Assembly: GCA_006503475.1 (NCBI GenBank)
Contig: RSEH01000027.1
Location: 1 to 64,000 of the forward strand
DNA from: Stentor roeselii
Lineage: Eukaryota > Ciliophora > Heterotrichea > Heterotrichida > Stentoridae
Reading direction: 5' to 3'
Length of the DNA: 64,000 bases
Shown: one piece after another, positions 25,385-42,925 of the stretch
Position numbering within the stretch: position 1 is the first letter of the stretch
How the letters are laid out: each line of letters starts with the position of its first letter
The notes under the pieces: generated by a model
What the model was told of the DNA's origin: nothing
What the model saw: only the letters and a program-made list of their open reading frames with translations
Database searches by the model: none
Program-made: the position numbers and the translations under genes

Positions 25385-27994
25385 ATGGATTTTATAGAAC
25401 ATTCAAATATCCCGGGCCCGCCCATAATAAAGAGTTTTTCCTCTGTTTCAAAGGCTAAGAATGCTCCAGTAAGCTTTTTATTTTCATTCTCGTTGATAAT
25501 CCTAATGACTTATTCAATTTCAGGGTATTTAGTCGACTCTGAATTCTTTCAAGAAGTCACTTTGAAAGACTTCCAAAGAGGAGAGATTTACACCTTTTCA
25601 TGTTCAAACATCTTACAGGTTCTCAAGAATAGCTCTGAGGACTCAACCAAAACCTTTGACGAGAAGGTAAATTTTACCTTGATAGTTCTCGATAGGAATC
25701 AAACAAATCTTCAGCTTATTTTCATGGAAGGGAATTTCAGTCAAATTTACATGAGCGAGTTGGATGAAATTGACCTTCAACTGTTAAGCGAAATAACTTA
25801 TGTTGTGGTTGAAGTAGATGCTACCACAGGAGAAATACAAAAAGTTAAGTATCCTGAGCATGTAACTGAAAGCTACATGCATGTCATTCTTCCTTATATC
25901 AGAGGATATTTAGTAGACAAGAGGTATCTCCATACTCCAAGTTCCGGAGAAAGAAACCTGATTCCTCATCACTCTTCAATGAAAGTGCGAAACACTTTAA
26001 CAGAAACCAACTCATCTCGAATCCTCCATCAGCACATCAGAAGTGACGAAAAATTTCCAACAATCTTAGAATCCGACAACAATTCATTCAAATCCCTAGT
26101 CGACGGAGTCTCTTCAAGCACAGTACTCAGCCAGTTCATAAGCAAAGACCTAAAAAAAGTAAACATGTTCCAAATTCACAGTGAAACAAACCTGAACTTC
26201 TTAAATTCCAGTCTAGGAGAAGCAACCACAATAATTCAAGATTCTTTTGTGAAAATCGAAGAATCATCAGAAAAAATCAAAACTGTTTGGCTTGACAGAG
26301 CTTTAAGTTTAACAGAAAACATAAAACATAATCAATATGAGGAGAATTTCGATAATTTTCAAGAAAATCAACCGAAAAATAACCAAAGACAACTGAAACA
26401 AGTCCATGCTCAGAAGATTTACTTGACTGATATATTTGGTAAAAAATTGCACTGGGAAATGATTATCGATGACTTGAGAAATGAAACTTCTAACTTCACA
26501 ACCTGGCTTCGACTGGAATCCTTGTTTGATTGGAAGCTCTGTGAAGGGGCTTATCGTCCTGAGACCACCAGGTGGGTCAAACAGACTTACACGTTAAAAA
26601 ATATTTATGAAGATGTTGCCAATGAGGTTCATAGAATGTTAAATCTTATAAAAACTGAAAGAATGCTTTTAACTCAGGTCTTTATTTCTGAGATTTATTT
26701 GGAGATTAAGTATTTGCTTTCTTTTATTGATGTTAACTTTGAAATGAAAATGATTGAGATAAAAAGAAAACAAAGTGAATATTCGAATATTCTTAGGAAT
26801 GGGGCCATGGACTCTTATGTCCCTGATACATATAAACAGATTTTTGAAGAATTTAATTCAACTTGTCGAAATTTTATTAATCAGGTTAATGCTGATGTGG
26901 AGTTTAAAGTCTCAGAGTTCAAGAAATTGGAAGTTAGTTATGATGATGCTAATGATAAGGCAAATGTATTGATAAAAACAAATAATCAGTTTTTGAATCT
27001 TGTTAATTCAACTACTGTTAAGAATTCTGCACAATTACTGAATTTTACTTATTTCTACAAGATTCGAGATGATATTTTAAATGATTTAACTCAAATAAAG
27101 GTGAACCAAGAAAAATTATTTAAAAAGATAAACGATCAAACTATTGAGCTAAATTTAACAAGAAATAAGATGTTCACTAAATTTGAAAACTCGCTTGCAG
27201 AATCTTTAAAACAATTTAATATGATAGAGATGCAATATAAGATTAATCCTACAAATAATTCCTTTATGTATGGTATTAACAATATCACAAACTATACCTT
27301 GGAATTAGCTTATAGGATTTCTGCTCCAATGAACTTAACCCAATTTTTATATACAAAATTTACCAACATCAACAAAACGATTCCAAGTACTTTGAGTAAA
27401 TCAAAAAATTTTATAGATACCACAGTTGTAAAGTATGTAAACTCACATAGTTTAAAAGAATCAGAAGTATTTTGTGAACAAAGAAACAATGTTCAAATTA
27501 ACATGAGCGTTATCACCAGATTCACAATGATTCAAACTCCGATATATATATCAATTCCACAAACATCGATTATCAACAACTTCACTAATTCTATCTATCA
27601 AGCAAAAGAATATCAAATAACTTCTAAAATTTCAATGAATGCCAGTGTCGTTATTCCAACTTCAACATATATAGTTTCAGATTTCCTTAAAGCAACTTTT
27701 ATCCTTGGCTTATTGTACAATATTGGTTACAATTTTCAAAAGTTGTTATTTTATTATAATGGGACTACTTCATTTTTGTTGACCAAAAACACTCATTTAT
27801 GGGAGAAGAATACATATAAATATCAATATAGAAAATGCAGATGGAGGTGGGGTAAAAGATCTTGCTGGACTGAAACAGAAACTAGATGGACTGATCCAAA
27901 ATATATTATCAGAGAGACTACCAATAACGCTTTATTGAAGAGCTCTTTTGATAAATATCTTGAAGGATTTCTTTTAGAGAACAATAGCATTTAG
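25385..27994 (+). CDS. Large ecto-domain membrane protein, unrecognised family, copy 1 (869 aa)
   Basis: This is not a family I know. A cytoplasmic N-terminus of about 28 residues leads to a membrane segment (about 29-49), then a roughly 700-residue region with many N-x-S/T sites. That predicts a lumenal or extracellular location. A second membrane segment lies at about 765-790, and the last part (about 800-869) is rich in Trp, Arg and paired cysteines (CRWRW, SCWTETETRW). The ectodomain has a mixed alpha/beta first half and a long helical second half (about 410-640). Copy 2 at 35363 shares the layout and several motifs: YP.HV.E..M...LPY, D.FGK.L.W, W.LCEG.Y.PET and CWTE. These two define a paralogous family. 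No enzyme motif is seen, so adhesion or sensing is only a guess. TAG ends the gene; no intron. Confidence 0.6.
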   Translation: MDFIEHSNIPGPPIIKSFSSVSKAKNAPVSFLFSFSLIILMTYSISGYLVDSEFFQEVTLKDFQRGEIYTFSCSNILQVLKNSSEDSTKTFDEKVNFTLIVLDRNQTNLQLIFMEGNFSQIYMSELDEIDLQLLSEITYVVVEVDATTGEIQKVKYPEHVTESYMHVILPYIRGYLVDKRYLHTPSSGERNLIPHHSSMKVRNTLTETNSSRILHQHIRSDEKFPTILESDNNSFKSLVDGVSSSTVLSQFISKDLKKVNMFQIHSETNLNFLNSSLGEATTIIQDSFVKIEESSEKIKTVWLDRALSLTENIKHNQYEENFDNFQENQPKNNQRQLKQVHAQKIYLTDIFGKKLHWEMIIDDLRNETSNFTTWLRLESLFDWKLCEGAYRPETTRWVKQTYTLKNIYEDVANEVHRMLNLIKTERMLLTQVFISEIYLEIKYLLSFIDVNFEMKMIEIKRKQSEYSNILRNGAMDSYVPDTYKQIFEEFNSTCRNFINQVNADVEFKVSEFKKLEVSYDDANDKANVLIKTNNQFLNLVNSTTVKNSAQLLNFTYFYKIRDDILNDLTQIKVNQEKLFKKINDQTIELNLTRNKMFTKFENSLAESLKQFNMIEMQYKINPTNNSFMYGINNITNYTLELAYRISAPMNLTQFLYTKFTNINKTIPSTLSKSKNFIDTTVVKYVNSHSLKESEVFCEQRNNVQINMSVITRFTMIQTPIYISIPQTSIINNFTNSIYQAKEYQITSKISMNASVVIPTSTYIVSDFLKATFILGLLYNIGYNFQKLLFYYNGTTSFLLTKNTHLWEKNTYKYQYRKCRWRWGKRSCWTETETRWTDPKYIIRETTNNALLKSSFDKYLEGFLLENNSI

Positions 27995-28873
27995 TTAACT
28001 TGAATATCAATTAGGATAATAATGGTATATAATCTTAACTTTATAAGTTTTTGTAATTATACTGATACAAATGATTAAATTACTAGTGAGAAAATATTGA
28101 AAATAATAGCATGATAATATACTTGACTTTATGTTTGAGTGTTAAGATGTTCAATTGGATTAGCTCAATATAATTCTAAGCGAATTTTTTAAATACAAAA
28201 ATTAAAAAAGTTTAAATATCATTTAGAGTAATAGGATGGTGGAAGAGCAGTAAAATTGACAGTATATGGATGCATTTCTGGAATAGAAGAAAATTGTAAA
28301 ATAAATTTAATTCATCATAGAGTATCCAAAGATTAGACAGACAGAATATATTAACTCAATTGTAGAAATACTAAACTTAAATAAGATAATTTAGTAATAT
28401 ATTTGTATCAATCATTTTAAAATATTTCAAATGCTATGAAATCCTTTATAGTTATCATTTTCAATAAATCCTATATTATTTAGACTTTAAAACTTGTGCT
28501 AATATAACTAGAATAAAATAATTATCAAGTATCATATCAATATCATAAAAAGAATTCAGGGTTATTATATTTGATGAGTAATGATCTTAGTCAGATATAT
28601 GACATTAAGCTCAAAGTCAATAAAAAATTAGATCTAATTTTTCCCCTTTATAAAAATATTTGAGACATTTAAATTGATTCATTGATCAACACATTAACAT
28701 CTAAATTTCTCAAACTAATATATTTATTTACCAATATATTTAAAACCCTTAACTCATTATCAATGCATAGAAATTCTCCTAAAACCCCCTCCAAAAATCA
28801 CATCAATCATCTAAAAAACCCAATCATCCATCTTAAAAATCCAAATCAAATCTAAAAAAATCCAAATATAAAA
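27995..28873. other. AT-rich gap ending in an A+C-rich leader
   Basis: The first 650 bp are plain AT-rich spacer. The last 120 bp before the next ATG are almost free of G, with repeated AAATCC-like strings, and form part of a skew block. No gene is seen. Confidence 0.45.
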
Positions 28874-31800
28874 ATGAACTCAACCCTCGAGCACTTCCTG
28901 AAAGCTTCATCAGCCGACGACCAACGTCGCACTCCGGCATCAGAGAACATCGAAGAAGCGATAGAAGGCGTGATCTCTTACATCGAGACTCAACTTCCTA
29001 AAGTGATCGACGTGGACTTCACCCCGATCTGCTTCGACCTGACAGAAGACGAGAACCGTTTAATAATGGGCGGTCTTCATGGAAACATCGCGATATTCGA
29101 CGTTTCCAGTGAAAAAGTCGTGAAAGACATCGAGTTATGTTCTTGTCGCATCAGTTCCGTCACTTTTTGTCTGAAGGACTCGATGGTTCTCGTCATCAAC
29201 GAAGAGAAAGTCTTTTATATTCTTGACTTTCCTTCTTTTAACCTTGTCTACAACTTCACTCTTTCTTATCCAAAGCTGGTAATCAAAGCAGGCTTTTTAA
29301 AAGACTCGATTTTTATTTCGACTTGCACAAATGCAGTGATTGCTTTTGACCTTAAACAACTGGAAGAAGATGTTGAAAATAGAAGTGAGTTAATTAGAAG
29401 AGAAATTGAAGTTGATGGAATTGTTACTTGTCTTGATATCTGTGATGATGGGTCACTTTTTGTTTATGGATTCCTTAATGGCTTCGTTCGTCTTTATCAT
29501 GGAGAAACTGAGACACCTTTGCAAGAGTCAGAAAGTTATGAAGGCCAGGTCGATATTGTTATGTTTGGAAGTTTGAGAAAACTATTGGCCGCTGGATTTA
29601 GTGATTTTTTGATTGTGGTTTGGAATATCGATACCTCCTTGACTGTGAAGAACTTGATACGAGTTCATGAGGGGGAAATAAAAGGATTGTCTTTTTTAAA
29701 GGATAATAGGTACCTGGTGACCGGCGGAGACGACTGCAAAATCGTAGTGCACGACATGAAAGTCGACCGTCAGCCTTACCCATTAGAACTCTTCGACCAA
29801 AACGTTCTATGTTTCAAGTCCTCATCGGACTACAAAAAGCTTTTTTACACCCAAAACATGAACAAGTTAATGATCTGGGACGTTCCACTTCTCTCAAAAA
29901 ACGCTCGTTACAAAAAGCACAGTCAAAAAATAACAAAACTCGTATTCATCAAAAACACTTTCGACCTTCTAAGCATCGGAGAAGACGGCTTCGCAATAAT
30001 TTGGGACTACCGCAACGACGTGATGCAAGAAATGATTGAAGTGAACTGGCCTCTGACAACAGGCATCGTGTCTTCCAAGTCGAACTTCGCTTTTCTCTGT
30101 TCTGAGAAGCCGAGTCTTCTGCGGTGGAGTCTTGCGACTTACAAGTACTACGACTACGACTTGAATTCAGTGGTCCGTTCGATTCGCTTCAGTTCAGATG
30201 AGAACCTCCTGGCACTTGGCGACGACTTGAATCGGATAATCGTATACGACGCGGTGATAATGGAAAGAAAGTACATCATCAAAGGACATACTGACGTCGT
30301 CATTGAAATTTACTTCATTCGCTCTGATACTGAAGTACTCACTGCTAGTCGTGATCATAGTCTTGTTAATTGGAATTTGAATACTTCTGATAAAATCACA
30401 AATTTTCATGGACATACTGCCCCTGTCACTTGCATGATTGTCACTCCTGATGAAGCTTGGATCATCTCAGGGGCTGAGGATTGCTCGGTTATTATTTGGA
30501 GTATTGATAATGTCTTAATGCATGTTTTAAGACATGATAGTCCGCCACTTGGACTTTATTTGTCTAAAAGTAAATCGTATTTGTTGTGTATTGAACTTGA
30601 AATGTTGAATTGCTGGCAACTTGATAATCTTTCAAGGATTTTTCAGAAAAATATTGGAGGGGCTTCGAATTTAGCACTTTCAGATGATGAAAAAACCATC
30701 GCAATTTCTGAGGGTGACTCGATTTTTATTGAGGAAAATCCTTTGCAGAGTAGTAATATTCGAGTTGTGGGGAAGAATTATGGCTCTTCTCATAAGTTCA
30801 TGAATTATATCTTGGAAATTGCTAGGGATGGCATTAGAGCTCCACATTTAGATATTTATAATCATTGGCTGTTCACTCCCTACTGCATGGGAGTGACACA
30901 CATCCTAGCCTTCAAGAACCGTTACGACTCTCTATTCCCAGTACTTCTCGAAAACGAGAACCGTCCTCCATTCTGTTCGACAATAAACCAAGAGACGCCA
31001 TTATCAATAAGTGTAGAAATGGACCACAAGTCATGCATAGAGGCTTGTTTAAAGTACTTAAAAAACGAGTTTAACCGGGACAACAAGCGAGCTTACGTTC
31101 CTTTAGGAGCCTGTTTAACAAAGCTTAACACACTCGACATAAGTTCCATTCCAAAGATCTACGAAACCCTTTACGAGCGAAGCTACAGCCTTCATCTTCC
31201 GAGCTTCTGCCTTCACGGTACTCAACTTCCAACTCTTTTCCACAGTGAAGAGTTTCTAATAAAGCCAGGTGACTTAATCGCTGATGAAAACGTCTCAACT
31301 CACGGCCTTTCCATAGTTTTTTACCATACCATCTGCCCAATGGACCTTGACATCGGCACCACAGGTTCCATTGAATTCTTAGAAAGTCTTTTAGAATGTC
31401 CTTATTCTGAAATCTTCAGAACCAAGTTACTTAAAGAAATCCTTCAGAATAAATGGCAGAAACTTAAATGGGCGATTTATATTCAAGGCATTCTTTACAT
31501 TTTTTACTTGGTGCAACTTTCATTTTACTGCATTTTCTTTAGACAGTCGCCGATGTACTTGATTGTTTTGTTTATTGTGCATGTTTTTTTGTTTCTTTAT
31601 GAAGTTATTCAGATCACTACTGATTTTTATGATTATTGGCTGGATGTTTGGAATATTTTAGATCAACTTCGAGGAATTTCTTTTACTTTGTTCTGCTTTT
31701 TAGAATGGGCAGGACATGATAATAAAAATGTTTTGTTAATCGTGATTATCTTCTCGTGGACTAGAGGAATTTCTTACTTTCGCATGTTTGACGGGACTCG

Positions 31801-32467
31801 GTATATGGTCCGGTTGTTGTCTGAGGTGATTAAAGACATGAAGGTTTTTTTTATCATTCTTTTTTACTCGACTCTTGCTTTTACCTTTATTTTTTACCTG
31901 AGAAACCCGGACAACTTGTCATTTTCTGAGTTTTTAACAATTAGTTACAGATTGGATCTTGGGGACTTCGATGCTGATTATACTGAAGCTTTTGATTGGG
32001 TTATTTTCTTTTTAGCAACTGTGATCAACCCTCTTATCATGTTGAACCTTTTGATTTCAATCATGGGAGATACTTATGGAAAAGTACAGGAAACGAATGA
32101 TATCGCGAATTTTCAGGAATTGACTGAAATGATCATTGAAATTGAAAAACTCATGTTTTGGAAAAAAGGAAATTCTCAACAATTTTATATGCAATCTTGT
32201 GATTATTTAAAGGGAAATGAAACTGAAAAGGATAAAGTTAATGAAAGGATCAAGGCGTTGAGGACTCAGCTGCTGGGAATTGAAAATACGGTTACTAATC
32301 TTAAGAGTAAAGTTAAGGCTAGTAAAGTCAAATTGCTTTATGAGACTATTGATGCACTTGTCAAGGAAAGGGAAGAACTACAGATGGTAATTATAAGAAA
32401 TCAAGAAACCATAGAAAGAAGTAACCAAATCATGAGTGAAATCTACGAAAAACTTGAAAATAGATAG
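28874..32467 (+). CDS. WD40 beta-propeller fused to a TRP-like cation channel, 1197 aa
   Basis: The first 620 residues are about twelve WD40 blades, probably two propellers (recurring GH.D.V, VTGGDDC.I.VHD, SGAEDCSVIIWS). A linker (about 620-860) resembles the region before the channel in TRP-type proteins. Six membrane segments span about 865-1085, with a pore loop between the last two at about 1022-1036 containing LDLGDFDADY, rich in acidic residues as in Ca-permeable TRP channels. The last segment ends in NLLISIMGDTYGKV, a strong match to the TRPV/TRPA S6 end. A coiled coil (about 1110-1195) closes the protein and could drive tetramer formation. I infer a plasma or ciliary membrane cation channel with a cytoplasmic propeller as sensor or scaffold. 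No introns; TAG stop. Codon use switches sharply along the gene. Confidence 0.8.
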   Translation: MNSTLEHFLKASSADDQRRTPASENIEEAIEGVISYIETQLPKVIDVDFTPICFDLTEDENRLIMGGLHGNIAIFDVSSEKVVKDIELCSCRISSVTFCLKDSMVLVINEEKVFYILDFPSFNLVYNFTLSYPKLVIKAGFLKDSIFISTCTNAVIAFDLKQLEEDVENRSELIRREIEVDGIVTCLDICDDGSLFVYGFLNGFVRLYHGETETPLQESESYEGQVDIVMFGSLRKLLAAGFSDFLIVVWNIDTSLTVKNLIRVHEGEIKGLSFLKDNRYLVTGGDDCKIVVHDMKVDRQPYPLELFDQNVLCFKSSSDYKKLFYTQNMNKLMIWDVPLLSKNARYKKHSQKITKLVFIKNTFDLLSIGEDGFAIIWDYRNDVMQEMIEVNWPLTTGIVSSKSNFAFLCSEKPSLLRWSLATYKYYDYDLNSVVRSIRFSSDENLLALGDDLNRIIVYDAVIMERKYIIKGHTDVVIEIYFIRSDTEVLTASRDHSLVNWNLNTSDKITNFHGHTAPVTCMIVTPDEAWIISGAEDCSVIIWSIDNVLMHVLRHDSPPLGLYLSKSKSYLLCIELEMLNCWQLDNLSRIFQKNIGGASNLALSDDEKTIAISEGDSIFIEENPLQSSNIRVVGKNYGSSHKFMNYILEIARDGIRAPHLDIYNHWLFTPYCMGVTHILAFKNRYDSLFPVLLENENRPPFCSTINQETPLSISVEMDHKSCIEACLKYLKNEFNRDNKRAYVPLGACLTKLNTLDISSIPKIYETLYERSYSLHLPSFCLHGTQLPTLFHSEEFLIKPGDLIADENVSTHGLSIVFYHTICPMDLDIGTTGSIEFLESLLECPYSEIFRTKLLKEILQNKWQKLKWAIYIQGILYIFYLVQLSFYCIFFRQSPMYLIVLFIVHVFLFLYEVIQITTDFYDYWLDVWNILDQLRGISFTLFCFLEWAGHDNKNVLLIVIIFSWTRGISYFRMFDGTRYMVRLLSEVIKDMKVFFIILFYSTLAFTFIFYLRNPDNLSFSEFLTISYRLDLGDFDADYTEAFDWVIFFLATVINPLIMLNLLISIMGDTYGKVQETNDIANFQELTEMIIEIEKLMFWKKGNSQQFYMQSCDYLKGNETEKDKVNERIKALRTQLLGIENTVTNLKSKVKASKVKLLYETIDALVKEREELQMVIIRNQETIERSNQIMSEIYEKLENR

Positions 32468-32551
32468 TAACCTCTAACCATCCTAAAATCCTTACTCTAT
32501 TAAAATCTCTAACTACTTAACCTATAATCTTCAATACAAACTTCAGAATAA

Positions 32552-33748
32552 ATGTCGCTAAGAGACTTCGAAATCCTCTCAGAAATCGGAGAAGGAGCCT
32601 ACAGCAAAGTTTTCAAAGTCCTTCGTTTATCCGACCAAGAAATCTACGCCCTTAAAAAAGTGAAAATAAAATCTCTTAAAAAAAAAGAAAAAATCAACGC
32701 ATTGAACGAAATCCGTATTCTCGCAAGTATTTCTCATCCAAACATAATCTCCTACAAAGAAGCTTTTTTCGATGACAACTCAGACAGTTTATGCATCGTG
32801 ATGGAATACGCCGACGGTGGCGACTTGTACCAGAAAATCTTAGACTCAAAGAAAAAACAGTCATACATGAGCGAGGCTTTTCTTTGGCACTTGTTGATAA
32901 AATTAACTCGTGCTTTAAAGGCCTTGCATGAGTTGAACATAATGCATCGAGACTTGAAAAGTGCCAACGTTTTTTTAACGCGTGATGGAAAAGTCAAGTT
33001 AGGTGATTTGAATGTCTCGAAAGTGGCGAAGGAAGCAATGAACCATACTCAAACAGGGACTCCTTATTATGCAAGTCCTGAAGTGTGGAAAGACGACCCT
33101 TATGATGTCAAGTCTGATATTTGGTCACTTGGATGTGTTTTGTATGAAGCGGCGGCACTCAGGCCGCCTTTTAAAGCAGAAGATATGAAGTCTTTGTTTA
33201 AAAAAGTCACTAAAGGCGTATTCCCTCCTTTGCCGACTTGTTATTCTCAGGATTTTTCAGAGGTTTTGTCGTTTTTTATCATTGTTGATGCGAAAAAAAG
33301 ACCTAGTGCTAGTCAGATCTTGAAATTGAATCTTGTGAATAAAAGAGTTAATGTGAAAGAGGAAAGTGAATCGATTTGTGCGGGGTTAATTGGAACTATC
33401 AAGTTGCCGTCGAATATTTCAAGTATTTCGCAGTATCTGCCGGGGTCGAAGTATAGTAAAAGTGAATTGAATACAAGTCGCACTCCCCTACCGCAGATCG
33501 TTATGATTAATAGACTACAGAGAAGTGATGATGAAGAATGTCAACCCCATCGGAATGCTAGTCGAATTGAAATGCCTTTAAGGGCTAGTCCTGTACTTCG
33601 CAGGAACTATGAAGCTTTGAGACTGCCGAGGGTTAAGTATCCCCACAAGGTTAACTCAATGCACGAGGAGCTCCTGAATAAGCTAGTCAGGAGAAAAGAA
33701 GAAATTCTACCCTTACCCATTCAAGAGAGAAAGATAAGAAGATATTAA
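32552..33748 (+). CDS. NEK-family Ser/Thr protein kinase, 398 aa
   Basis: The kinase domain is residues 4-260. It has a Gly loop GEGAYSKVFKV, catalytic Lys in YALKKV, the catalytic loop HRDLKSANVFL, activation segment GTPYYASPEVW, and the SDIWSLGCVLYE motif, all of the NIMA-related type. The Mg-binding DFG is replaced by DLN (GDLNVSK); the key Asp is kept, so activity is expected. The tail (260-398) is basic and unstructured, without a clear coiled coil. NEK kinases are greatly expanded in ciliates and act in cilia length control, basal bodies and cortical organisation. The gene starts 84 bp after the WD40-channel gene, same strand. Confidence 0.9.
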   Translation: MSLRDFEILSEIGEGAYSKVFKVLRLSDQEIYALKKVKIKSLKKKEKINALNEIRILASISHPNIISYKEAFFDDNSDSLCIVMEYADGGDLYQKILDSKKKQSYMSEAFLWHLLIKLTRALKALHELNIMHRDLKSANVFLTRDGKVKLGDLNVSKVAKEAMNHTQTGTPYYASPEVWKDDPYDVKSDIWSLGCVLYEAAALRPPFKAEDMKSLFKKVTKGVFPPLPTCYSQDFSEVLSFFIIVDAKKRPSASQILKLNLVNKRVNVKEESESICAGLIGTIKLPSNISSISQYLPGSKYSKSELNTSRTPLPQIVMINRLQRSDDEECQPHRNASRIEMPLRASPVLRRNYEALRLPRVKYPHKVNSMHEELLNKLVRRKEEILPLPIQERKIRRY

Positions 33749-33844
33749 TAATCCATCTCAAGTTCTAAAATAATAACTTCAGCAAATCAATAAACCATCA
33801 AAAGTTAACAGTTCCAAAAAAGTTCCATTTCGATAATTTAATAA

Positions 33845-34387
33845 ATGCAAGATTTCAATTCTCGACAAGTCCCAAAGTCGACATCGCCAAAGCGTCACCC
33901 ATCCTACCCGCTGCCCAGCTTCATGACTATCTCAAAGCCGATTGATTCAGGAGACATCGAAAGTACCTGCGAAGAAAGCGTCAATCATCTTCACTCGTAT
34001 CACAAGACCTGGGACCAAGAACTATGCAAAGTGACTGAGTACAACGAGTCCATGGAATATTCTGCATGCAAAGAAGAAAGTGATTTAACCGGTAAAATCA
34101 ATGAAATCAAATTTGCCAACTCAATCACTGACAAATTCCCTAAATTCTCTGTTGCTTCTCTTTGTATCAGCGACTGCTCTGCTCAGAACGTCGATGGCAA
34201 AAGAGCGGAATTTGAATATACTGATAATTTGGAAGTTTTGATTTATTCTGAAAATGATAAGGAAATTTCTATTGATGTTAAAGATACTTGTCAGGGAACT
34301 AAAGGGTCTTTTGAAGGGGATACTTTTGAAACGAAGTTTGAGAAAAACTCTAAACTTTGTGCTTGTAGTGGATGCTCTATTATTTAA
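33845..34387 (+). CDS. Small acidic protein with a CaaX-type end, 180 aa
   Basis: No family is recognised. The protein is soluble and Ser/Glu-rich, with a basic, proline-containing N-terminus (about 1-40). It ends CACSGCSII: the last four residues CSII fit a CaaX prenylation box, and the two cysteines just upstream (CAC) could be palmitoylated, which together predict stable membrane attachment. The start is the first ATG after an A-rich leader, 96 bp behind the NEK gene and on the same strand. The stop is TAA. The predicted lipid anchor is inference from sequence alone, but the arrangement is the same as in many prenylated signalling proteins. Confidence 0.6.
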   Translation: MQDFNSRQVPKSTSPKRHPSYPLPSFMTISKPIDSGDIESTCEESVNHLHSYHKTWDQELCKVTEYNESMEYSACKEESDLTGKINEIKFANSITDKFPKFSVASLCISDCSAQNVDGKRAEFEYTDNLEVLIYSENDKEISIDVKDTCQGTKGSFEGDTFETKFEKNSKLCACSGCSII

Positions 34388-35362
34388 GATTTTTTTCAGG
34401 TTGGGTTAGAATTGATTAGGGTTTTAGGATTTAGTTTTTTGGAATTTTTAAGTGGTTGATTTTTCTGGATTTTAATGTTTTTAGGTTTGGATTTTTTTTT
34501 GAGGAGTATTAGCTTGATTGATTTTTAATAGGTATCTTAATATTTTATCGATAGAAATTGTAAAGAATTGGAAAAGAGGAATTTTCGCTTGTTTAAAATT
34601 TAAAAAATGCATCAAGGTAGTTACAGTGAATTGAATCTAATATCAGAACTTGTGCTAGGCTTATTTTTAATAATCCATCGTTCTTATAAATTTCATTTCA
34701 AATACCCAATAAAAATAAAAATTAGAAATCTTTGGAGATGGTCTTTACCAAATGAATTTTAAGTTTTAAGCATTTTCTTTAGAAACTGTCTTCATGTTTA
34801 ATTCAATATCTATCTATTTTAAATCTATTCTAAAAATATTCTTTTCAATTTTTAGTTTAGGGTGTATGATGAATATTGAAAAGTTAAATGCATTTAAAAT
34901 ATTAGTTGCTCAATTATATCTCAAAAATTCATAAAATATAAGAATTTCAATATAGTTAAACTCAATTTTAAATAAGCATAACAATATTAGTTCTATGAAG
35001 TCAAACAAAAGAAAATTTCATAATATATAAACAATTAATATGTAAATAAGTTGATCCTTCCACTTCAATTAAATCAGAACTCTAGATATCCTAATTTGCA
35101 ATGAAATCAATAATATGTTATTTTTAAATCATTTCTTTAGAAGCCTTATACTTGATATTTTTATTTGAATATAAATATCAGTATACTCTAGATTTTATTT
35201 TAAAAATACGATTGAGAGGCTTCAATAATAATCTTTCGATTTGAGGATCATGATATTTATAGTAAATGTGAGTTTTATCATTTATACTTGATAAGTTGGA
35301 ATACTTAGTTATAGGCATTTACATAGCTAATAATATATTCTATATTTTAACTAAATATAAAA
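34388..35362. other. AT-rich intergenic gap
   Basis: The first 130 bp are strikingly G+T-rich (almost no C), continuing the skew of the preceding gene end. The rest is A/T spacer. No gene is seen. Confidence 0.45.
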
Positions 35363-38074
35363 ATGAAAATGGATTTTCAAATTGTCAAAAGTCCGGCAAA
35401 AGAGTCTAACTTGGACTCTAATGATAAGTCTCATTTTCAAACTACTGACAAAAATATAGAAAATCACCCAAAATCTCACTTGAGGATCAATGATCCAAAT
35501 GAAGTTGAAAAAAAATCGAACCAAAAAACCCGGAATTCAAGTTTTCTGATTGGCTTAATGAAAGCTTGTTCTCCATTCGCCGTACTGATTATCGCATACA
35601 TATTGCTATACATATCATTGAATTCTTCTGAGTCAGAATATAATCTTCCTTCTTTAAAAAAAGGTGAAATCTACATCTTAAACTGTTCATCTTTCACCGA
35701 AATGACCAACAGTTTCAAGGCAGAAGAGAGCAATGAAAACTTTTCAAACGCTTCATCAATCTACAGCATAATAATCACAAACAATTCCGAAAAATCCATA
35801 ACCTTTGCATTCATAAAAAGCAACATGGCGAAGTCCCATTTGATAAACATTGAAAAAATGGACCGAACATTTATCTCGTCTCTTTTTTACTTGATAATCG
35901 AATCAAGCATAGACTCAGGAGAGATCCTAAACGTGAAATACCCTTCACACGTATCAGAAGAAGACATGATTTTATCTCTTCCTTACGCAAGAGCTTTTCT
36001 GGTCAACAAGAAAGCGGCAGAGCAGTTAAACGGTTCTTTCTTCCATGAAAACGACTACGACACCTTCGATCATTCAATTCAAGACGATGAAAATGGACGA
36101 AAACTTGAAACATTCATTAAAAATAAAGGCTTAAATTACGGAACTTTAACTTCAGAAAATCTTTCAATTAACACCCTTATCGCTGGAGTTGAAGGAAAAA
36201 CGAATGTCAAACAATTTTTTGAGAAAAACAGCAGAAAGTTAACTAAAACTCAAGTTAAACATCATGGATTTATCAACTTCTTAACTGATGATCAGAATCT
36301 TAAAATGGCTTCAAATTTTTATCATGAAATTAATGTTGATGTTAAAACGATTGAAGAAAAAATTGATCATGGAAAAATTGATTTTGTTTGGAAAATTGTG
36401 GAAAATCAAACATTTTTTGATTATTCTGAAAAAAATCGAGAGGTTAAAATTATGGAAAAACATAAAAATACGAGAAAGATGCAAAGTGAGATTTTGTATC
36501 AGAATTATACTATTTCGGATGTTTTTGGGAAGGAGTTGTCTTGGGATTTCACTGCGTTTTTAATGGATAATGAAACTTGTGGATTCAAAACGAAAATGAT
36601 GTTAAAGGATTATTTTGTCTGGGATCTTTGTGAAGGAATTTATGGACCTGAGACATCTAAAAGACTGAAACAGGTTTTTGCATTTAAAAATGCTTTAAAT
36701 TATAAAGCAGATCAGACTGCTGAAATCGTTTATACTCTAACTCATTCACAATTAGATGAAGCTGATAAACTTGTAGATGATATTAAAAGTCAAATGCTCG
36801 ATTATTTAATTTCTATTGAAGTAGCTTTTGATGATTTACTGAAAAATTATACAGATTATAAAACAAAATACTCATTTGCTCTTAATAATGGTAGAACTGA
36901 CTTTAACATCAATGATATGTTCATCAATAATCTAACTAGTTTCAAGTTAAATCAAAATATTTACTCAGTTCAATTTAACAATGAAGTAAAAAACAATGTA
37001 TCGAATTTTCTTGAAATTTCATCAAGACTAGCACAAAAAGCCAATTCTAGAGCTAAAGAAATATCTAGTCAGGTAGTTAATAAGTTCAAATATTTGACAG
37101 ATTCAATAACAGTCACTGACAAAAATTCTTTGTTGGACTATAGCTACTTTCAAGGAATACAAAAAACAATAGAGAGTCAAATCATAGAAGGAAAAACCAT
37201 TACTGAAATTATTTCTAAAAAAATAATGAACATTATCAATGAACTTAAGGAAGTTCAAGATAATATGAAAAACGACTTCAAAAACAAATTGGAAATATAT
37301 ATACAAGAATTTAATGAAATTTCGATCATTTATAAAGCTAAAGTTTCAGATAATCTATTAATCAAAGAATTATCTGGAGAAATTGATCTTATCTTTAATT
37401 TCTTTGAAATTTTTCAAAAAGAATACAACAAAATTGTGACTGATTTACTTCAAATGCTAGATAATTCTTATAAAACAATACCCAGTAGCTTTATAAAACC
37501 ATATAATTATGCAAGTAATACTGTATCTGCCCATATCAAGCAAAATATAAAAGAAGAATATCAACTGAAATGCAAAAGCAATAATATTCAAATCACTATG
37601 AACATTCCTACTCAATACACAAAAATCAAAACAATCATTAATATTGACTTACCTCTAGGTAATAATATTTTTGACATGTTTAATCAAGTGAATTATGTTT
37701 CAAAAGATATTAAATTAGAATCAGTTTTAACAATAAAAGGTAGTAACCAGATATCTACCTCAGCTTATATTGTTGAGGATTTTATTGATGCCACAATAAT
37801 TTTTATAATTTTATATCAAATAGGACTCAGCTTATCCAAGTTAAGTTTCTATCATTTGTTAAATATAACATTTAAAGTGACAAGAAGAATGTATGTTTGG
37901 AAGAAATACTCATATGTATATTCCTATGAAGACTGTGATCTTTCTGATTGTTGGACAGAATATGCAACTGCATGGTCTAGTACATCTTATGATACTAACA
38001 AAAACGAAATTGCAAAGATTTCCAGCTATCTTGGAGAGGAAAAAACAATAAACTGGTTCGCAGGGACTGGTTAA
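35363..38074 (+). CDS. Large ecto-domain membrane protein, unrecognised family, copy 2 (903 aa)
   Basis: This is a paralogue of the gene at 25385. The cytoplasmic N-terminus is longer (about 58 residues, very charged). The membrane segment spans about 60-83. The lumenal or extracellular region has many N-x-S/T sites and the shared motifs YPSHVSEEDM, DVFGKELSW and WDLCEGIYGPET (about 420-432). The second membrane segment lies near 803-830. The C-terminus keeps the CWTE motif but lacks the dense Arg/Trp cluster of copy 1. The helical second half (about 450-720) is the least conserved. The WD40-channel, NEK and CaaX-type genes lie between the two copies. Function is unknown. A mis-assignment of topology is possible because the order of inside and outside rests on the glycosylation sites. 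Confidence 0.6.
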   Translation: MKMDFQIVKSPAKESNLDSNDKSHFQTTDKNIENHPKSHLRINDPNEVEKKSNQKTRNSSFLIGLMKACSPFAVLIIAYILLYISLNSSESEYNLPSLKKGEIYILNCSSFTEMTNSFKAEESNENFSNASSIYSIIITNNSEKSITFAFIKSNMAKSHLINIEKMDRTFISSLFYLIIESSIDSGEILNVKYPSHVSEEDMILSLPYARAFLVNKKAAEQLNGSFFHENDYDTFDHSIQDDENGRKLETFIKNKGLNYGTLTSENLSINTLIAGVEGKTNVKQFFEKNSRKLTKTQVKHHGFINFLTDDQNLKMASNFYHEINVDVKTIEEKIDHGKIDFVWKIVENQTFFDYSEKNREVKIMEKHKNTRKMQSEILYQNYTISDVFGKELSWDFTAFLMDNETCGFKTKMMLKDYFVWDLCEGIYGPETSKRLKQVFAFKNALNYKADQTAEIVYTLTHSQLDEADKLVDDIKSQMLDYLISIEVAFDDLLKNYTDYKTKYSFALNNGRTDFNINDMFINNLTSFKLNQNIYSVQFNNEVKNNVSNFLEISSRLAQKANSRAKEISSQVVNKFKYLTDSITVTDKNSLLDYSYFQGIQKTIESQIIEGKTITEIISKKIMNIINELKEVQDNMKNDFKNKLEIYIQEFNEISIIYKAKVSDNLLIKELSGEIDLIFNFFEIFQKEYNKIVTDLLQMLDNSYKTIPSSFIKPYNYASNTVSAHIKQNIKEEYQLKCKSNNIQITMNIPTQYTKIKTIINIDLPLGNNIFDMFNQVNYVSKDIKLESVLTIKGSNQISTSAYIVEDFIDATIIFIILYQIGLSLSKLSFYHLLNITFKVTRRMYVWKKYSYVYSYEDCDLSDCWTEYATAWSSTSYDTNKNEIAKISSYLGEEKTINWFAGTG

Positions 38075-38800: not shown

Positions 38801-40072
38801 ATGGTAGATTTGTCTATATTTCTAATGTCGAAGAAGTGTTTTGAAAAAAACTGCAAAGAAATTCCTTTATTTTACTGTCTCTGCCCTGATTCGCCTTATA
38901 TCTGTGAGTCTCACCTATTGACCCATATGTTTTCTATTGGGGATCACACAGCAAAGCAGCTGTTCATTCGTCCGAAAGATGATGAAAAAGGTAAAATAAT
39001 TGACTATATCGTCTCAGAGCAAAAAATTGTTAAAAGAAACATTCAAAAAGTCAAAGCTTTTTCAGATTTAATTATCAAGATGATCATTACTGAGTCAAAT
39101 AAAATAGTTCAAAAATTGATTAATTATCGTGAAATGATGGATAAACAATTTAAACTTATTATTCATCGATCTTTAGCTGATCGGGATACTTTAAAGAAAA
39201 TCAATTTCATTAAGTCGAATTTTCAGCTTGGAGTTGAGTTTGATGCTAAAAGTATTAAAAATAATGTTTTAAAAATTTTTGATTTACATTTGCCGAATTT
39301 TTATAATCCTGATGAGGAAGATGATGAATATGCTATTCTTTTTCCTAGTAGCACAAGTAGAAATGTTGAATTAATCGATTTAAAGAGTTTTAAAAAGACA
39401 AGTATTGATATGCGACTGAATGAATTTTCAAGTTTTTGTTTGTGCTGTAAAATTGATTCAAATAAGTATTTTGTATATGGTGGTAACGTTTCTGGCAGTG
39501 GTCTAAGTTCGGTTAAAATTATAAATATTAAAGAAAAATCATCTGTGCTTCTTGATCCTAAATCACCTGCTTCAAGATTAGGAGGCTGTTATCTTGAAAA
39601 TGAAATTTATGTTTTTGGAGGATGGATAAGTTCAGCTAATACAAATGAATGCCATAAACTAAATCTACTTACCAACCAATGGAAATCAATTCAGCCTTTA
39701 CCTGAGAAAAATTATAGGACAAGTGCATATAAACTAGATAGTAGAACTATTTTTGTCTGTGGATTTGAAAGCTCAAAAATTTTTTCATATAATATCAAAC
39801 AGAATCAATTTACAACTTGGAAAGATACTCTTCCTATTAATACATTCAAATATCTTATAAGAAATTGGATCATATGTTTTGGGAATTTCCTTTATGAGAT
39901 CGATGATCAAGAAAATTTGATAAGTAGGCAAGTTTTCCAGGATTCAGGCCTTAATGTAAACTCTTCAGGATATTTTAAACAAGAAAAATTTTTATATTTT
40001 CTCATGGGAGATGGAAAACTCTATCGCATAAATACTGAAGCCAAAATAATAGAAATAGTTAATTATAGTTAG
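38801..40072 (+). CDS. B-box zinc finger / Kelch-repeat protein, 423 aa
   Basis: A B-box-like cluster lies in residues 12-45 (C...C, CLC, C..H, H). A helical linker (about 60-170) follows, then a Kelch-type beta-propeller (about 175-423) with a clear GG..., YVFGGW and W..I.PLP repeat pattern. It resembles the B-box/WD40 gene at the left edge in its first 120 residues, so the two belong to one expanded family in which the propeller type differs. Such proteins are usual substrate-binding or cytoskeletal scaffolds. The first ATG (38801) gives a short extra N-terminus; the ATG at 38825, just before the zinc cluster, may be used instead. TAG stop, no intron. Confidence 0.7.
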   Translation: MVDLSIFLMSKKCFEKNCKEIPLFYCLCPDSPYICESHLLTHMFSIGDHTAKQLFIRPKDDEKGKIIDYIVSEQKIVKRNIQKVKAFSDLIIKMIITESNKIVQKLINYREMMDKQFKLIIHRSLADRDTLKKINFIKSNFQLGVEFDAKSIKNNVLKIFDLHLPNFYNPDEEDDEYAILFPSSTSRNVELIDLKSFKKTSIDMRLNEFSSFCLCCKIDSNKYFVYGGNVSGSGLSSVKIINIKEKSSVLLDPKSPASRLGGCYLENEIYVFGGWISSANTNECHKLNLLTNQWKSIQPLPEKNYRTSAYKLDSRTIFVCGFESSKIFSYNIKQNQFTTWKDTLPINTFKYLIRNWIICFGNFLYEIDDQENLISRQVFQDSGLNVNSSGYFKQEKFLYFLMGDGKLYRINTEAKIIEIVNYS

Positions 40073-40766
40073 AATAATAGACAAGAGTTTAAAATTTAAG
40101 TGATTTTTTAACAATTATATATACATAGTCATAGACTCAATTTATCAAATGTCAACAGAAGAAACTCCAAATTTGATCAAGAGTTTCCTTGTTCCTAAAT
40201 TTTATTAAAAATTGGATTGATGTTTTAATTTAAGCCCAAAATTCTACTTTAAACTGTTTATTAAGGTCTAAATTGATAATCCTTATTGCAAGTAAGATTT
40301 TCCATATGCGGGGTAAATAGATAAAAACTCTAACAATGAAAATAGACTTTTAATTTTGGCTTAATCAAAGTAATAGCAACTTTAAGCTTCAAATAATTTA
40401 AAAAATTATACCATTACTATGATTCATGATGAAAAAAAAATTCAATACATTTTTTCTAGTAAATCAGGTTTATTTTACAATTTGAGTTTACTATAATTGA
40501 TAAATCTTCAAGTATATTACCAAGATTTACTTTGAAAAACGTGAAAATTTAATTCTTACGAATATGAAACTTTGCTAAAGATGAACATTATCAGGAGAGT
40601 ATTTATAGGTTGATTTTTATCAACACAATCTTATATTGAAATATTTAATTTCCATTAAATATTCTCTTTCAACATAACCCTTTCTCATAGCTTCCATCCC
40701 ATAAAAATCCCATTAAACCCATCCCTAAATTTCCAAACCCATCTAAAATGAAAAATTAAAATTACC
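40073..40766. other. AT-rich convergent gap
   Basis: It lies between the convergent Kelch and MORN genes. A/T-rich, with no gene or repeat recognised. Confidence 0.45.
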
Positions 40767-41696
40767 TTAAAATTCTTGAAACTGTTTAACTTTTTTTCCA
40801 TCCTCCCAAATTCCATCCTCAACACTTCCATCACAAGAAAAGATCTTTCCCCTTCCATGTTGTTTTCCATCTTTCCACCCTCCAACATATTTTTTTCCAT
40901 CAGGCCACAAATAAATTCCATTTCCATTTTTTTTATCATCAAAATAGTCCCCATCATACATTCTGCCATCCCTCCAAGTATATTTCCCCTTTCCATGCAT
41001 TTTATTATCAGCCCACAATCCGACATATTTCCTTCCATCAAGCCAAGTATAATTTCCGAATCCATGCAATTTATTCTCTTTCCAATACCCAACATAAACA
41101 GAGCCATCTCTCCATCTATACATTCCAAAGCCGTCCTTTTTGCCAAGTCTATAAAACCCTTTATAAGCGCTTCCATCATTCCAAACCTCTTCTCCATATC
41201 CAGTCTGAGCATCTTCTTTCCAATCGCCGACGTATTTGCCGCCACTTTTCTTGTCATATACGCCTTTACCGTTGGCTTTGTCATTTTCCCAGTGCCCTTC
41301 GAAAACATCACCAGAAACATGAAAGAACTTGCCATGGCCATTTGATTTACTGTTCTTACAAACGCCGACATATTTAGAACCATCTGGCCAGGCCTTTGTA
41401 GCGAAGCCATCAGGAACTCTTTTCTTTTGATTTCGAGAGTTTCTTTTCCGATCATGAGTCACTTTCTTTTTACCCTTCAACAAGTTATTCTTCTTGAGAT
41501 ACCGAAGGACCTTTCTAGTTTTGTACCCTTTCCAAAATGCCTGAAGCTTGAGACAAGCAGCGATATGAACTCCGGTATAATAAAAGTTAGAGTAGTCAGT
41601 TCCTAAACTTTCATTTTCACTTGAAACTTTTTCGACTTCTAAAACCAATTCATTTTCCTTAGCAGCCCAAGTGCAATTCGAGCATCGTTGGCCCAT
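40767..41696 (-). CDS. IQ motif / MORN-repeat protein, 309 aa
   Basis: The N-terminus MGQRCSN has Gly2 and a nearby Cys and may be acylated. An IQ-like calmodulin-binding helix (KLQAFWKGYKTRKVL) lies near residues 55-69. From about 108 to 300 there are about eight or nine MORN repeats with the canonical Y.G.W....HG.G.Y.W.DG spacing. MORN proteins bind lipid or form flat scaffolds at membranes and basal bodies. An IQ plus MORN layout with a possible N-acyl anchor suggests a Ca/calmodulin-linked cortical scaffold. The gene lies 14 bp downstream of the phosphodiesterase stop, same strand. The opposite strand carries long open frames that are shadows of the repetitive codons. Confidence 0.85.
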   Translation of the reverse strand: MGQRCSNCTWAAKENELVLEVEKVSSENESLGTDYSNFYYTGVHIAACLKLQAFWKGYKTRKVLRYLKKNNLLKGKKKVTHDRKRNSRNQKKRVPDGFATKAWPDGSKYVGVCKNSKSNGHGKFFHVSGDVFEGHWENDKANGKGVYDKKSGGKYVGDWKEDAQTGYGEEVWNDGSAYKGFYRLGKKDGFGMYRWRDGSVYVGYWKENKLHGFGNYTWLDGRKYVGLWADNKMHGKGKYTWRDGRMYDGDYFDDKKNGNGIYLWPDGKKYVGGWKDGKQHGRGKIFSCDGSVEDGIWEDGKKVKQFQEF

Positions 41697-41710: not shown

Positions 41711-42925
41711 CTAAAGATTTTCGATTTTTTCCCAACTTCTTCTATTTTCCTCAATACTTTGAAGGTACTTCTCAATGCCTTCAACATGACTCGAAAGTAA
41801 TTGCCAGAGAGGATGAATGAACATATCAATAAAACCTATTTGATTTCTCTTGATTTTATTGATATCTGAACCGATTCTCATAAACTCACTGACAGGAATA
41901 CCTTTCTGCTCTTCTTTCCACACCTGTTCATTAAACTCCTGAATAATTCTCAAGCTCCAGACAGTAGCGAGTTCAAATTTAAGTACCGGGTTTCCAACAT
42001 CTGCAGCATGTAAGACCAAATCCATGAAACTTTGCCGATGTTCCGAGTTTTCTTTATTATAATCCCTAACACAACTACAAAAGTGCTCCATGACAAAGTT
42101 ATGCTTTGCCATATCAGTCGCTAAAACAGTAGGAATAATGATTTTTCTCATACTGGTCTGCTCTGTCTGGCTAAGATTCGCAAAGATATCACAACCGGGT
42201 AGTTCTAAAAAGCGAATTAACGTCGCAGCATGATGGTTCTCAAGAACTGAGATGTCATTATAACGCACTGCAAGAGGGTGACGTGAATTTATCATGAAAA
42301 CATTTGTGACTCCTGGATGGTTCAGGTCGTGTCCTAGACCTGAAATCAGAAGAGCCAGGTTTTCAAAGGGAAGAAGACGAGACTCGAACTGACTGTTTCG
42401 CTCGGATATCGTGAAAATCATCTGGCATACTGAAAATGCGTGAAAAAAGTTGTGAAAAGGGTTGTCTTGGTAGTTTTCACTTATCGCTAGAATAAAACGC
42501 TGCATTTTCACTAGGTCTAATGAGAACTGACACATGTTCGGCCAAAAGATGTGAAGAAGACTTTCACGGAGCTCGTCTTTTGACTTCATTATTGTGTCGT
42601 AGTCCTTGTCACGAAGCTGCACTAAAAGGTCTTCTCGTGGAGTGAAGGGACTTGAAGGACTGTATTTGAAGTTCTCAAGCTTTGAAAAGTAAAGAGGGGC
42701 TAGGATGTCGTTGTGGAGAGCTTGAAGCCAGATGTTACGACGACCTGTGTCGATTTCTTGAAGACTCATGAATGTTTGGTGGATTAACTCGAGTTCGGCG
42801 TTTGAACCTACACCTTCGAATTGAAGACCTAGCTCACGGATCTTTGCTATAATTCGTTGCTCTTGGTCAGTCGCTTGAATAGGATCAGAGACTTTTGGTT
42901 TTTTAACTAACGATGAGCAGCCCAT
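41711..42925 (-). CDS. 3',5'-cyclic nucleotide phosphodiesterase with N-acylation start, 404 aa
   Basis: It hydrolyses cAMP and/or cGMP. The catalytic domain (about 110-400) has the metal-binding motifs HNFFHA, GHDLNHPG and LHAADVGNP, and the invariant purine-binding Gln in NQIGFID. No GAF, PAS or membrane domain precedes it; the first 100 residues are short and helical. The protein starts MGCSSLVKK, predicting myristoylation and palmitoylation, so it should work at the membrane. Substrate preference cannot be deduced safely. The start is fixed by the acylation motif. It is divergent from the Myb gene with 481 bp between, and only 14 bp separates its stop from the next gene. Confidence 0.93.
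   Translation of the reverse strand: MGCSSLVKKPKVSDPIQATDQEQRIIAKIRELGLQFEGVGSNAELELIHQTFMSLQEIDTGRRNIWLQALHNDILAPLYFSKLENFKYSPSSPFTPREDLLVQLRDKDYDTIMKSKDELRESLLHIFWPNMCQFSLDLVKMQRFILAISENYQDNPFHNFFHAFSVCQMIFTISERNSQFESRLLPFENLALLISGLGHDLNHPGVTNVFMINSRHPLAVRYNDISVLENHHAATLIRFLELPGCDIFANLSQTEQTSMRKIIIPTVLATDMAKHNFVMEHFCSCVRDYNKENSEHRQSFMDLVLHAADVGNPVLKFELATVWSLRIIQEFNEQVWKEEQKGIPVSEFMRIGSDINKIKRNQIGFIDMFIHPLWQLLSSHVEGIEKYLQSIEENRRSWEKIENL

Follow-up and report, generated by a model that had tools for sequence, protein, structure and literature searches.

Replication and transcription leave strand skews of longer range, in which GC and AT skew are coupled and one sign is kept per replichore or per gene. 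A subtelomeric base bias of hypotrich nanochromosomes was reportedly described by Prescott and Dizick in 2000. Excerpts of three papers report such a bias in hypotrich and Halteria nanochromosomes, one of them terming it a purine bias (PMC3558436, PMC7858049, PMC1805493). Around human meiotic breaks, according to the excerpted account (PMC7615360), changes affect C and A on the forward strand to the left of the break, where the DNA is single-stranded, and the complementary bases on the opposite side; resection covers 1-2 kb, C>T is elevated at CpG, asymmetry is absent from the central ±100 bp, and the peaks of several mutation types lie 700-800 bp off.

We analyzed a window of 64,000 nucleotides from Stentor roeselii, in which a sequence-only reading had proposed that A+C-rich (AC) and G+T-rich (GT) blocks alternate abruptly, ignoring gene limits. 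The genome has the look of a somatic one from a heterotrich ciliate. Plus-strand segmentation of positions 28687-34594 was based on synonymous codons within three open reading frames (ORFs) and on single bases elsewhere, and yielded the blocks and boundaries listed below with the ORF calls. Neutral sequence flanks the series on either side.

28687..29305, plus strand: AC block spanning the 5' flank and the first part of the WD40-channel gene
28874..32467, plus strand: ORF of 1197 amino acids, WD40 repeats (by Pfam) followed by a putative ion-channel region
29306..29710, plus strand: GT block in the WD40-channel gene
29711, no strand: sharp GT-to-AC boundary (posterior sd 0.5 codon)
29711..30316, plus strand: AC block
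30317..30865, plus strand: GT block
30866, no strand: sharp GT-to-AC boundary (posterior sd 1.3 codons)
30866..31441, plus strand: AC block
31442..32377, plus strand: GT block
32378..32968, plus strand: AC block spanning the gene gap 32467/32552
32552..33748, plus strand: ORF of 398 amino acids, protein kinase (PF00069, E 3.9e-60)
32969..33640, plus strand: GT block in the kinase gene
33641, no strand: sharp GT-to-AC boundary, 108 bp upstream of the kinase ORF end (posterior sd 0.7 codon)
33641..34147, plus strand: AC block spanning the gene gap 33748/33845
33845..34387, plus strand: ORF of 180 amino acids with a CaaX-like C-terminal tail
34148..34594, plus strand: GT block covering the third gene's end and 3' flank

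The first ORF matches 35 Pfam families; the 25 that were listed are WD40/propeller models, with no channel among these 25. The region after its repeats we take, as did the sequence-only reading, to be an ion channel. The kinase owes its name NEK to that reading, and the third ORF has no Pfam match at E 0.001.

The block pattern is real. The nine flips first proposed lie within 4-169 bp of those of the segmentation (in order 6, 6, 13, 4, 67, 8, 169, 89 and 48 bp). When windowed-skew variance was compared with synonymous-codon shuffles (300 per gene), all three genes proved blockier than every shuffle. The ratio of observed to null variance was 1.95-3.4 for ORF 28874-32467 (z 8.5-9.9), 1.6-4.5 for ORF 32552-33748 (z 3.9-7.0) and 2.3-4.6 for ORF 33845-34387 (z 4.6-6.5). 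The pattern is not uniform among the 20 window ORFs tested: ORFs 2626-7083, 10268-13309 and 14543-17728 are not above their shuffles (|z| at most 1.7), and 38801-40072 and 40767-41696 are not clearly so (z at most 1.5). Trained on sequence outside the window, a codon model gained 596 log units on these 20 ORFs, against a shuffle average of -85. Regional clustering of block strength is weak (permutation p 0.045 in the window and 0.12 in a 150-kb stretch of C429).

The blocks do not alternate freely: the pattern is a sawtooth, in which AC relaxes gradually to GT and GT snaps to AC over about 30 bp. Among 119 ORFs we counted 94 transitions from AC to neutral, 103 from neutral to GT and 44 from GT to AC; those in the opposite direction numbered 0 from AC to GT, 23 from neutral to AC and 18 from GT to neutral. 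Reading the codons of the 20 held-out window ORFs forward rather than reversed gained 17.7 log units (13 ORFs positive, 5 negative, 2 zero). Large jumps in the model-weighted score (40-codon windows, threshold 1.0) went from GT to AC 36 times and from AC to GT 4 times; when a simple C/T score was used instead, sharp jumps from GT to AC were not significantly more frequent (36 v 25, 15 v 8, 7 v 3).

Each block is a flank, left or right, of a narrow boundary. To the left of a boundary the plus strand contains little C and, less markedly, little A; to the right it contains little G and T. Across 50 aligned boundaries, the proportion of NNY codons ending in C is 0.08 immediately to the left and 0.75 immediately to the right, relaxing both ways. 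Fitted with one width for all, the boundaries are best described by a sign change over 10 codons, about 30 bp; not all of them are sharp, since 17 of the 50, taken singly, are best fitted by widths of at least 40 codons. The effect reaches about 200 codons, roughly 600 bp, on each side, and coding sequence carries about 0.26 sharp GT-to-AC sites per kb, to which many spacers are added. The regular short period that had been suggested does not hold: there are two unlike kinds of flip, sharp sites are scattered, and 15 boundary-free ORFs of at least 600 codons show almost no skew once about 600 bp away from either end.

Third codon positions, within long intact ORFs, carry most of the change. 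Codon positions 1 and 2 shift too (0.498 versus 0.542), as does non-coding DNA: G stands at 0.077 upstream of AC-start genes versus 0.130 upstream of neutral-start genes, and C at 0.086 downstream of GT-end genes versus 0.134 downstream of neutral-end genes. In the window, the G fraction is 0.07 across 28687-28957, and the spacer between 32467 and 32552 holds hardly any G. Because non-coding DNA and codon positions 1 and 2 shift as well, the process acts on DNA, as the sequence-only reading had supposed. C preceding G stands at 0.05 in the GT state versus 0.77 in the AC state. C/T-ending codons respond more than A/G-ending codons, and Gly codons and Arg CGN codons shift partly in the wrong direction. 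The GAC share is 0.79 in the AC state versus 0.39 in neutral sequence; C thus exceeds its neutral level in the AC state, so that one-strand loss of C is insufficient alone. A pure C-deamination model fails on this point and on the weak response of A/G-ending codons. Amino-acid composition also contributes to the raw skew.

With respect to genes, the claim that blocks ignore gene limits needs qualification. Blocks do cross gene gaps, the AC blocks at 32378-32968 and 33641-34147 each taking in one gene's stop codon, the spacer after it and the start of the following gene, but flips concentrate near gene starts and ends, gene ends being preferred sites, and starts rarely lie in GT: ORF starts are AC in 50 of 119 cases, neutral in 64 and GT in 5. 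Whether tandem, convergent or divergent, many spacers are themselves boundaries, and those that flip go from GT to AC whatever the orientation: 20 versus 1 in the other direction among 81 tandem spacers, 8 versus 1 among 27 convergent and 14 versus 0 among 28 divergent ones. Transcription direction is therefore not the cause, in agreement with the first interpretation, which is partly supported overall.

Nor are protein domains, since long paralogues sharing the same domains flip elsewhere. In-gene boundaries fall mostly at different places in the long paralogues examined. The comparison comprised 115 rows, in which some genes are counted twice because kinase loci overlap separately fetched stretches; the 11 pairs with at least 100 interior positions, 10 of them from five related proteins, have interior-profile correlations from -0.61 to 0.66 with a mean of 0.00. 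Profiles are correlated in the long pair L045/L046 (r 0.66) and shared within a tandem pair of recent origin with 84% identity (r 0.96). Among short kinase paralogues, an AC start and a GT end are common to most, L003 and L008 being flat or opposite. Two other candidates were rejected. Introns: of five candidates one was compared, at window position 19348, and it adjoins an ORF that is neutral for 497 codons. Telomere addition sites: the AC fractions in the first 100 bp past the telomere at three ends (0.32, 0.45 and 0.63) have no common sign, and boundaries are internal to the 64-kb window and to the C429 stretch.

We tentatively infer, as a reading that may well be right but falls short of probable, that boundaries are sites of repeated germline (micronuclear) breakage with 5' resection, most likely meiotic (Spo11-type). 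Germline DNA would be broken again and again at GT-to-AC boundaries; 5' to 3' end resection would leave the 3'-ended strand single-stranded, that is, the top strand to the left and the bottom strand to the right; and C-to-T and A-to-G changes, of deamination type or from error-prone repair, would befall the exposed strand, so that in the long term the left flank would become GT-rich and the right flank AC-rich. The breaks would most likely be meiotic and lie in open intergenic DNA; those within genes would mark lineage-specific sites, which could be germline-only inserts (IES). An IES missing from the somatic copy would make an in-gene flip look sharp. The genome contains one match to the Spo11/Top6A N-terminal family (PF04406, E 3.9e-18) and 12 Piwi matches. 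The composition shows the mirror-image loss of C and A on the left and of G and T on the right, the A/G part being weak and context-dependent, and the asymmetry is limited to a flank of about 600 bp per side, within the range of some hundreds to about 2000 bp expected for meiotic breaks. A further step, possible although we think it rather unlikely, is that each sharp flip within a gene is the scar of a germline-only element that interrupts the micronuclear gene now or did so long ago, and that is broken or cut in germline descent; a hidden germline architecture and break map would then be readable from somatic sequence to within a few codons.

It is improbable, in our judgement, that boundaries are IES junctions whose skew stems from a non-break effect of the IES on adjacent germline DNA, for example replication-fork stopping or transcription launch. 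In the long paralogues compared, most in-gene boundaries are indeed specific to a lineage, no insert is visible in the present DNA, the average transition is narrow, and Blepharisma, another heterotrich, has about 40,000 IESs, about 70% of them intragenic, in the excerpted account (PMC9942856). However, TA is not clearly placed at boundaries. An initial excess over flanks (79 versus 53.1, z 3.6) is lost with amino acids fixed (79 versus 77.9, p 0.46, in a simulation that over-predicts TA in flanks as well) and against shifted positions (z 1.42); among 23 motifs set against shifted positions, GTA reached z 2.42 and TAT 2.82, so that neither TA nor another motif clearly marks the boundaries. At C429:144340, where a boundary is placed precisely (sd 0.7 codon), the 42 bp on the left side are free of TA, and the closest TA is some 11 bp away on the right side. 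Moreover, boundaries strongly favor spacers over early coding sequence (AC 50 versus GT 5 among the 119 starts), whereas Blepharisma IESs are just slightly depleted in genes, according to the same excerpt (PMC9942856). A search for PiggyBac (PF13843) gave no match; its controls were silent as well and hence uninformative.

Replication asymmetry, with mid-unit origins, forks meeting at fixed barriers and leading strands turning G+T-rich, seems distinctly improbable. Leading strands are usually G+T-rich, so the sign agrees, and a diffuse origin with a fixed terminus would yield a sawtooth. Against this, the 15 long boundary-free ORFs lose their skew beyond about 600 bp rather than keeping one sign to the center, and an origin and a barrier would be required roughly each kilobase. 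We hold out little prospect for transcription-linked mutation or repair, or R-loops, including those from internal or antisense promoters: flips do gather near gene starts and ends, and divergent spacers flip most often, but the skew switches sign within genes, convergent spacers also flip, and one polarity is common to all gene orientations. Codon selection through tRNA re-use, translation speed or mRNA structure is already disfavored and very unlikely. AC-state codons include GAC, AAC, TAC, CGT and GGT, favored in many organisms, and the Gly and Arg anomalies also suit it; yet the shift extends beyond synonymous coding sites to non-coding flanks and codon positions 1 and 2, and blocks span spacers and are mostly not common to long paralogues. 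To chance, domain composition or assembly artefact we give almost no credence, given the amino-acid-preserving shuffles, the held-out likelihood and long intact ORFs changed mainly at third positions, even though raw skew comes partly from amino-acid composition and some ORFs lack any pattern.

If repeated germline breakage is the right reading, one somatic genome records both germline break sites and the one-strand damage suffered there, damage strong enough to alter codon choice and even amino acids. This would provide a map of germline breaks or inserts for ciliates in which mating is difficult to obtain, and would allow one to test the extent to which break-centered mutation shapes proteins; in such genomes, the distance to a hidden boundary could mislead studies of codon usage and selection.

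Replication and transcription skews commonly couple GC and AT as well; here, the range is shorter and the sign is not fixed per gene. Blepharisma IESs, as excerpted (PMC9942856), resemble the in-gene boundaries in having many intragenic sites that are invisible in the somatic genome; here, no IES is seen in the somatic-type sequence and TA is not significant. Hypotrich and Halteria nanochromosomes carry a complementary strand bias at both DNA ends, like the boundary flanks, and a further likeness is that the Halteria coding strand has a GC skew at its 3' end; in these excerpted accounts, the bias lies at real telomeres and spans about 50 bp in Oxytricha, in contrast to about 600 bp within long contigs here (PMC3558436, PMC7858049, PMC1805493). 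The human data, as excerpted (PMC7615360), concern variants at PRDM9 hotspots that are rare or have newly arisen, as opposed to a fixed compositional footprint in coding DNA with a range of about 0.6 kb. We do not assign the boundaries to the meiotic-break class, because the symmetric center of about 200 bp (±100 bp in humans) is replaced here by a bias strongest at the boundary itself, with a sign change over about 30 bp. Both share the mirrored polarity of C and A versus their complement, and the boundaries appear to work like meiotic-break footprints.

The skew between A+C-rich (AC) and G+T-rich (GT) sequence on the + strand is a sawtooth. We studied it in 303 kb, comprising the window, positions 1-150000 of a second contig (C429) and nine other 9-10-kb stretches from five contigs. 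The sequence-only reading had described abrupt blocks between 28640 and 34520 that ignore gene limits. Against synonymous shuffling, which preserves every protein sequence and codon count (20 window ORFs, 300 shuffles per gene), the three genes concerned are indeed blockier than codon-shuffled sequence (z 8.5-9.9, 3.9-7.0 and 4.6-6.5), and in each of them 0 of 300 shuffles was as blocky as observed. The same test reveals strong blocks in ORFs 19371-21794, 45459-47990, 47997-50099, 50534-53632, 55416-56645 and 60327-63989, and blocks seen chiefly with longer windows in ORFs 25385-27994, 35363-38074 and 41711-42925; they are absent from ORFs 2626-7083, 10268-13309 and 14543-17728, and the signal is not significant in 38801-40072 and 40767-41696. 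Positions 1-20837 are neutral in a base-level segmentation and hold none of the window's 10 in-gene boundaries, that is, sharp switches from GT to AC. The long ORFs at 10268, 14543 and 18894 in this stretch are cysteine-rich and receptor-like, as judged by eye; weak signal occurs in ORF 7871-8662 (z 2.4-3.1 in the shuffle test), and ORF 2626-7083 ends in GT.

Hidden Markov models of codon choice conditional on amino acid, built on 263 of the 303 kb (119 ORFs, 60128 codons), gain 2283 log units over one state with two states and 2804 with three. When trained on the 99 non-window ORFs, the three-state model gains 595.7 log units on the 20 window ORFs, unevenly, with a slight loss in 2 of the 20; on 20 shuffles it averages -85.3 (best, -70.5). 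From the AC through the neutral to the GT state, the share of GAC is 0.79, 0.39 and 0.19, and that of TAC 0.82, 0.37 and 0.18. The usual order across the 119 ORFs is AC, neutral, GT and AC again: we counted 94 transitions from AC to neutral, 103 from neutral to GT, 44 from GT to AC, 23 from neutral to AC, 18 from GT to neutral and none from AC to GT. This order is identical on the opposite strand and therefore tells nothing of gene direction.

In the 20 held-out window ORFs, true codon order outscores reversed order by 17.7 log units in total (true order favoured in 13, reversed in 5, zero in 2). With model weights in 40-codon windows, jumps above 1.0 number 36 from GT to AC versus 4 from AC to GT, and jumps above 0.8 number 58 versus 40; above 0.6, those from AC to GT prevail (164 versus 125), a surplus that gradual AC-to-GT change would give. 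The excess of GT-to-AC jumps is not significant with a plain C/T score, and a third-moment test on unweighted scores yields z 2.5-2.8 at 30-60 codons and 1.0-1.9 at 10-20.

Genes and boundaries between 28874 and 34387 are as follows.

28874-32467, + strand: WD40-channel gene (first gene)
29711 and 30866: boundaries inside the first gene
about 32378: boundary near the end of the first gene
32552-33748, + strand: kinase (NEK) gene
33641: boundary within the kinase ORF, 108 bp short of its end, acting as 5' boundary of the next gene
33845-34387, + strand: CaaX-like tail gene

In-gene boundaries have a density of about 0.26 per kb. Among the 119 ORFs, 50 start in AC, 64 in neutral and 5 in GT, and 46 end in GT, 50 in neutral and 23 in AC; the mean sign change lies about 250 bp upstream of the ATG and about 130 bp past the stop. 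With 60 flanking codons on each side and a threshold of 0.2, GT|AC switches span 20 of 81 tandem, 8 of 27 convergent and 14 of 28 divergent spacers, versus 1, 1 and 0 for AC|GT. Therefore, each kind of spacer can be a boundary, and sign-changing spacers nearly always run from GT to AC. A flank is below threshold in 50 tandem, 15 convergent and 14 divergent spacers, and both flanks have equal sign in 10, 3 and 0.

To describe the shape of a boundary, we used 154 ORFs of at least 150 aa, from which 50 GT-to-AC boundaries were taken. In two-fold NNY codons, the C fraction rises from 0.08-0.18 (the 80 codons on the left) to 0.70-0.77 (the 90 on the right); roughly 190 codons away, it has returned to about 0.45 in both directions. 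Because aligning on the best position exaggerates a step, we fitted ramps. A shared width of 10 codons fits best; a pure step is worse by 5.4 units and a 40-codon ramp by 24, and simulations with known widths place the common value at about 10-15 codons. Fitted singly, 17 of the 50 boundaries favour a width of at least 40 codons, which makes the set mixed or noisy. Where an ORF has a single boundary (30 ORFs), the score has returned to zero by about 200 codons and reverses its sign farther out, an effect that adjoining boundaries would produce; 15 long ORFs that lack a boundary score close to zero at more than about 200 codons from either end. Boundaries per ORF vary less than Poisson (0.66), which may reflect only unresolvable close pairs.

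Protein and codon choice are not the cause of the pattern. L048, a paralogue that matches the first gene at 51% identity over codons 73-1194, flips sharply at query codons 165 and 1020, versus 279 and 665 in the window gene; flips thus placed elsewhere agree with the earlier denial that domains are responsible. Interior profiles of 11 paralogue pairs, ten of them from five related proteins, correlate at a mean r of 0.00 (-0.61 to 0.66). Short kinase paralogues mostly have an AC start and a GT end in common, with L003 and L008 as exceptions. Non-coding sequence also responds: G in the 150 bp upstream is 0.077 at AC-start versus 0.130 at neutral-start genes, and C in the 150 bp downstream is 0.086 at GT-end versus 0.134 at neutral-end genes. 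At codon positions 1 and 2, AC is 0.498 to the left versus 0.542 to the right of the 50 boundaries (p 0.0002); Trp, Phe, Gly and Val are commoner on the left, Ser and Ile on the right.

C before G is almost gone on the GT side (0.05 versus 0.77 on the AC side), and C before T is least changed (0.28 versus 0.61). The GT side spares A before C and the AC side spares T after G, a pair that we read as mirror images. A simple loss of C is insufficient: on the AC side C exceeds its neutral level and Gly GGT and Arg CGT increase, and NNR codons respond weakly. The pattern requires both transition kinds on one strand, together with context. In all ORFs studied (for example, 28874-32467), AC blocks are richer in Gly GGT/GGC and Arg CGT, and GT blocks in GGA/GGG, a context effect that partly opposes the general A/C versus G/T rule.

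The assembly comprises 44.4 Mb in 522 contigs, one of which (C186) has the window as its bases 1-64000. The CCCTAACA telomere repeat, a mark of heterotrichs, was present at 3 of the 12 contig ends that we inspected; five candidate introns measure 15 bp (four) or 17 bp (one), the window's ORFs are long and unbroken, and the code looks standard (TGA absent from 71 of 91 long frames; TGG 501, TGA 62). Together, these features point to a heterotrich ciliate somatic (macronuclear) genome resembling that of Stentor. Despite this code, TGA is a rare stop in the 119 ORFs of window and loci (TAA 63, TAG 45, TGA 11). A 15-bp GT..AG stretch at 19348-19362, which would fuse ORFs 18894-19358 and 19371-21794, is probably a tiny intron. 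At 40685-41696, three long ORFs overlap on both strands, including a 309-aa frame (40767-41696, - strand) that resembles a MORN-type repeat protein. T makes up 53-57% of the first 300 bp inside the telomere at the left end of C429, versus 43-46% and 25-31% at two other telomeric ends. We set Blepharisma aside as the source, because UGA is reported to encode Trp there (PMC9942806).

The geometry of the pattern is independent of protein, and a point-mirrored, range-limited polarity indifferent to gene direction is what double-strand-break resection would be expected to give. A resected break would leave 3'-ended single strands, the top strand to the left and the bottom strand to the right, which deamination or error-prone repair could then hit; we infer such breaks, and their timing would be meiotic. 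A Spo11/Top6A N-terminal domain has one match in the genome (E 3.9e-18). Piwi domains have 12 matches without internal stops genome-wide. Inside genes, the sign change is narrow on average, which suggests a loss of DNA at the boundary of the kind that excision of germline-only inserts (IES) would cause. Blepharisma is described as having about 40,000 IES, about 70% of them in genes (PMC9942856). TA at boundaries, which the IES idea predicts, is not clearly borne out, and a PiggyBac PF13843 profile search of the genome gave no match, with an uninformative control; PiggyBac homologues are reported in Stentor and Condylostoma (PMC9942806).

Among the matches listed, titles and abstract openings in the open-access literature revealed no such sawtooth in a ciliate. 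As for resected breaks, a human study describes the same geometry at meiotic breaks: forward-strand C>N and A>N are mirrored by their complements on the other strand, the asymmetry occupies 2-kb flanks, and CpG sites show elevated C>T (PMC7615360). Unlike the boundaries here, human breaks are described there as having a central +/-100 bp without asymmetry and several types peaking 700-800 bp away (PMC7615360). The nearest known systems are this human meiotic-break spectrum and the composition bias at nanochromosome ends; the sawtooth differs from both in range, in shape and in its place in the coding DNA of long chromosomes.
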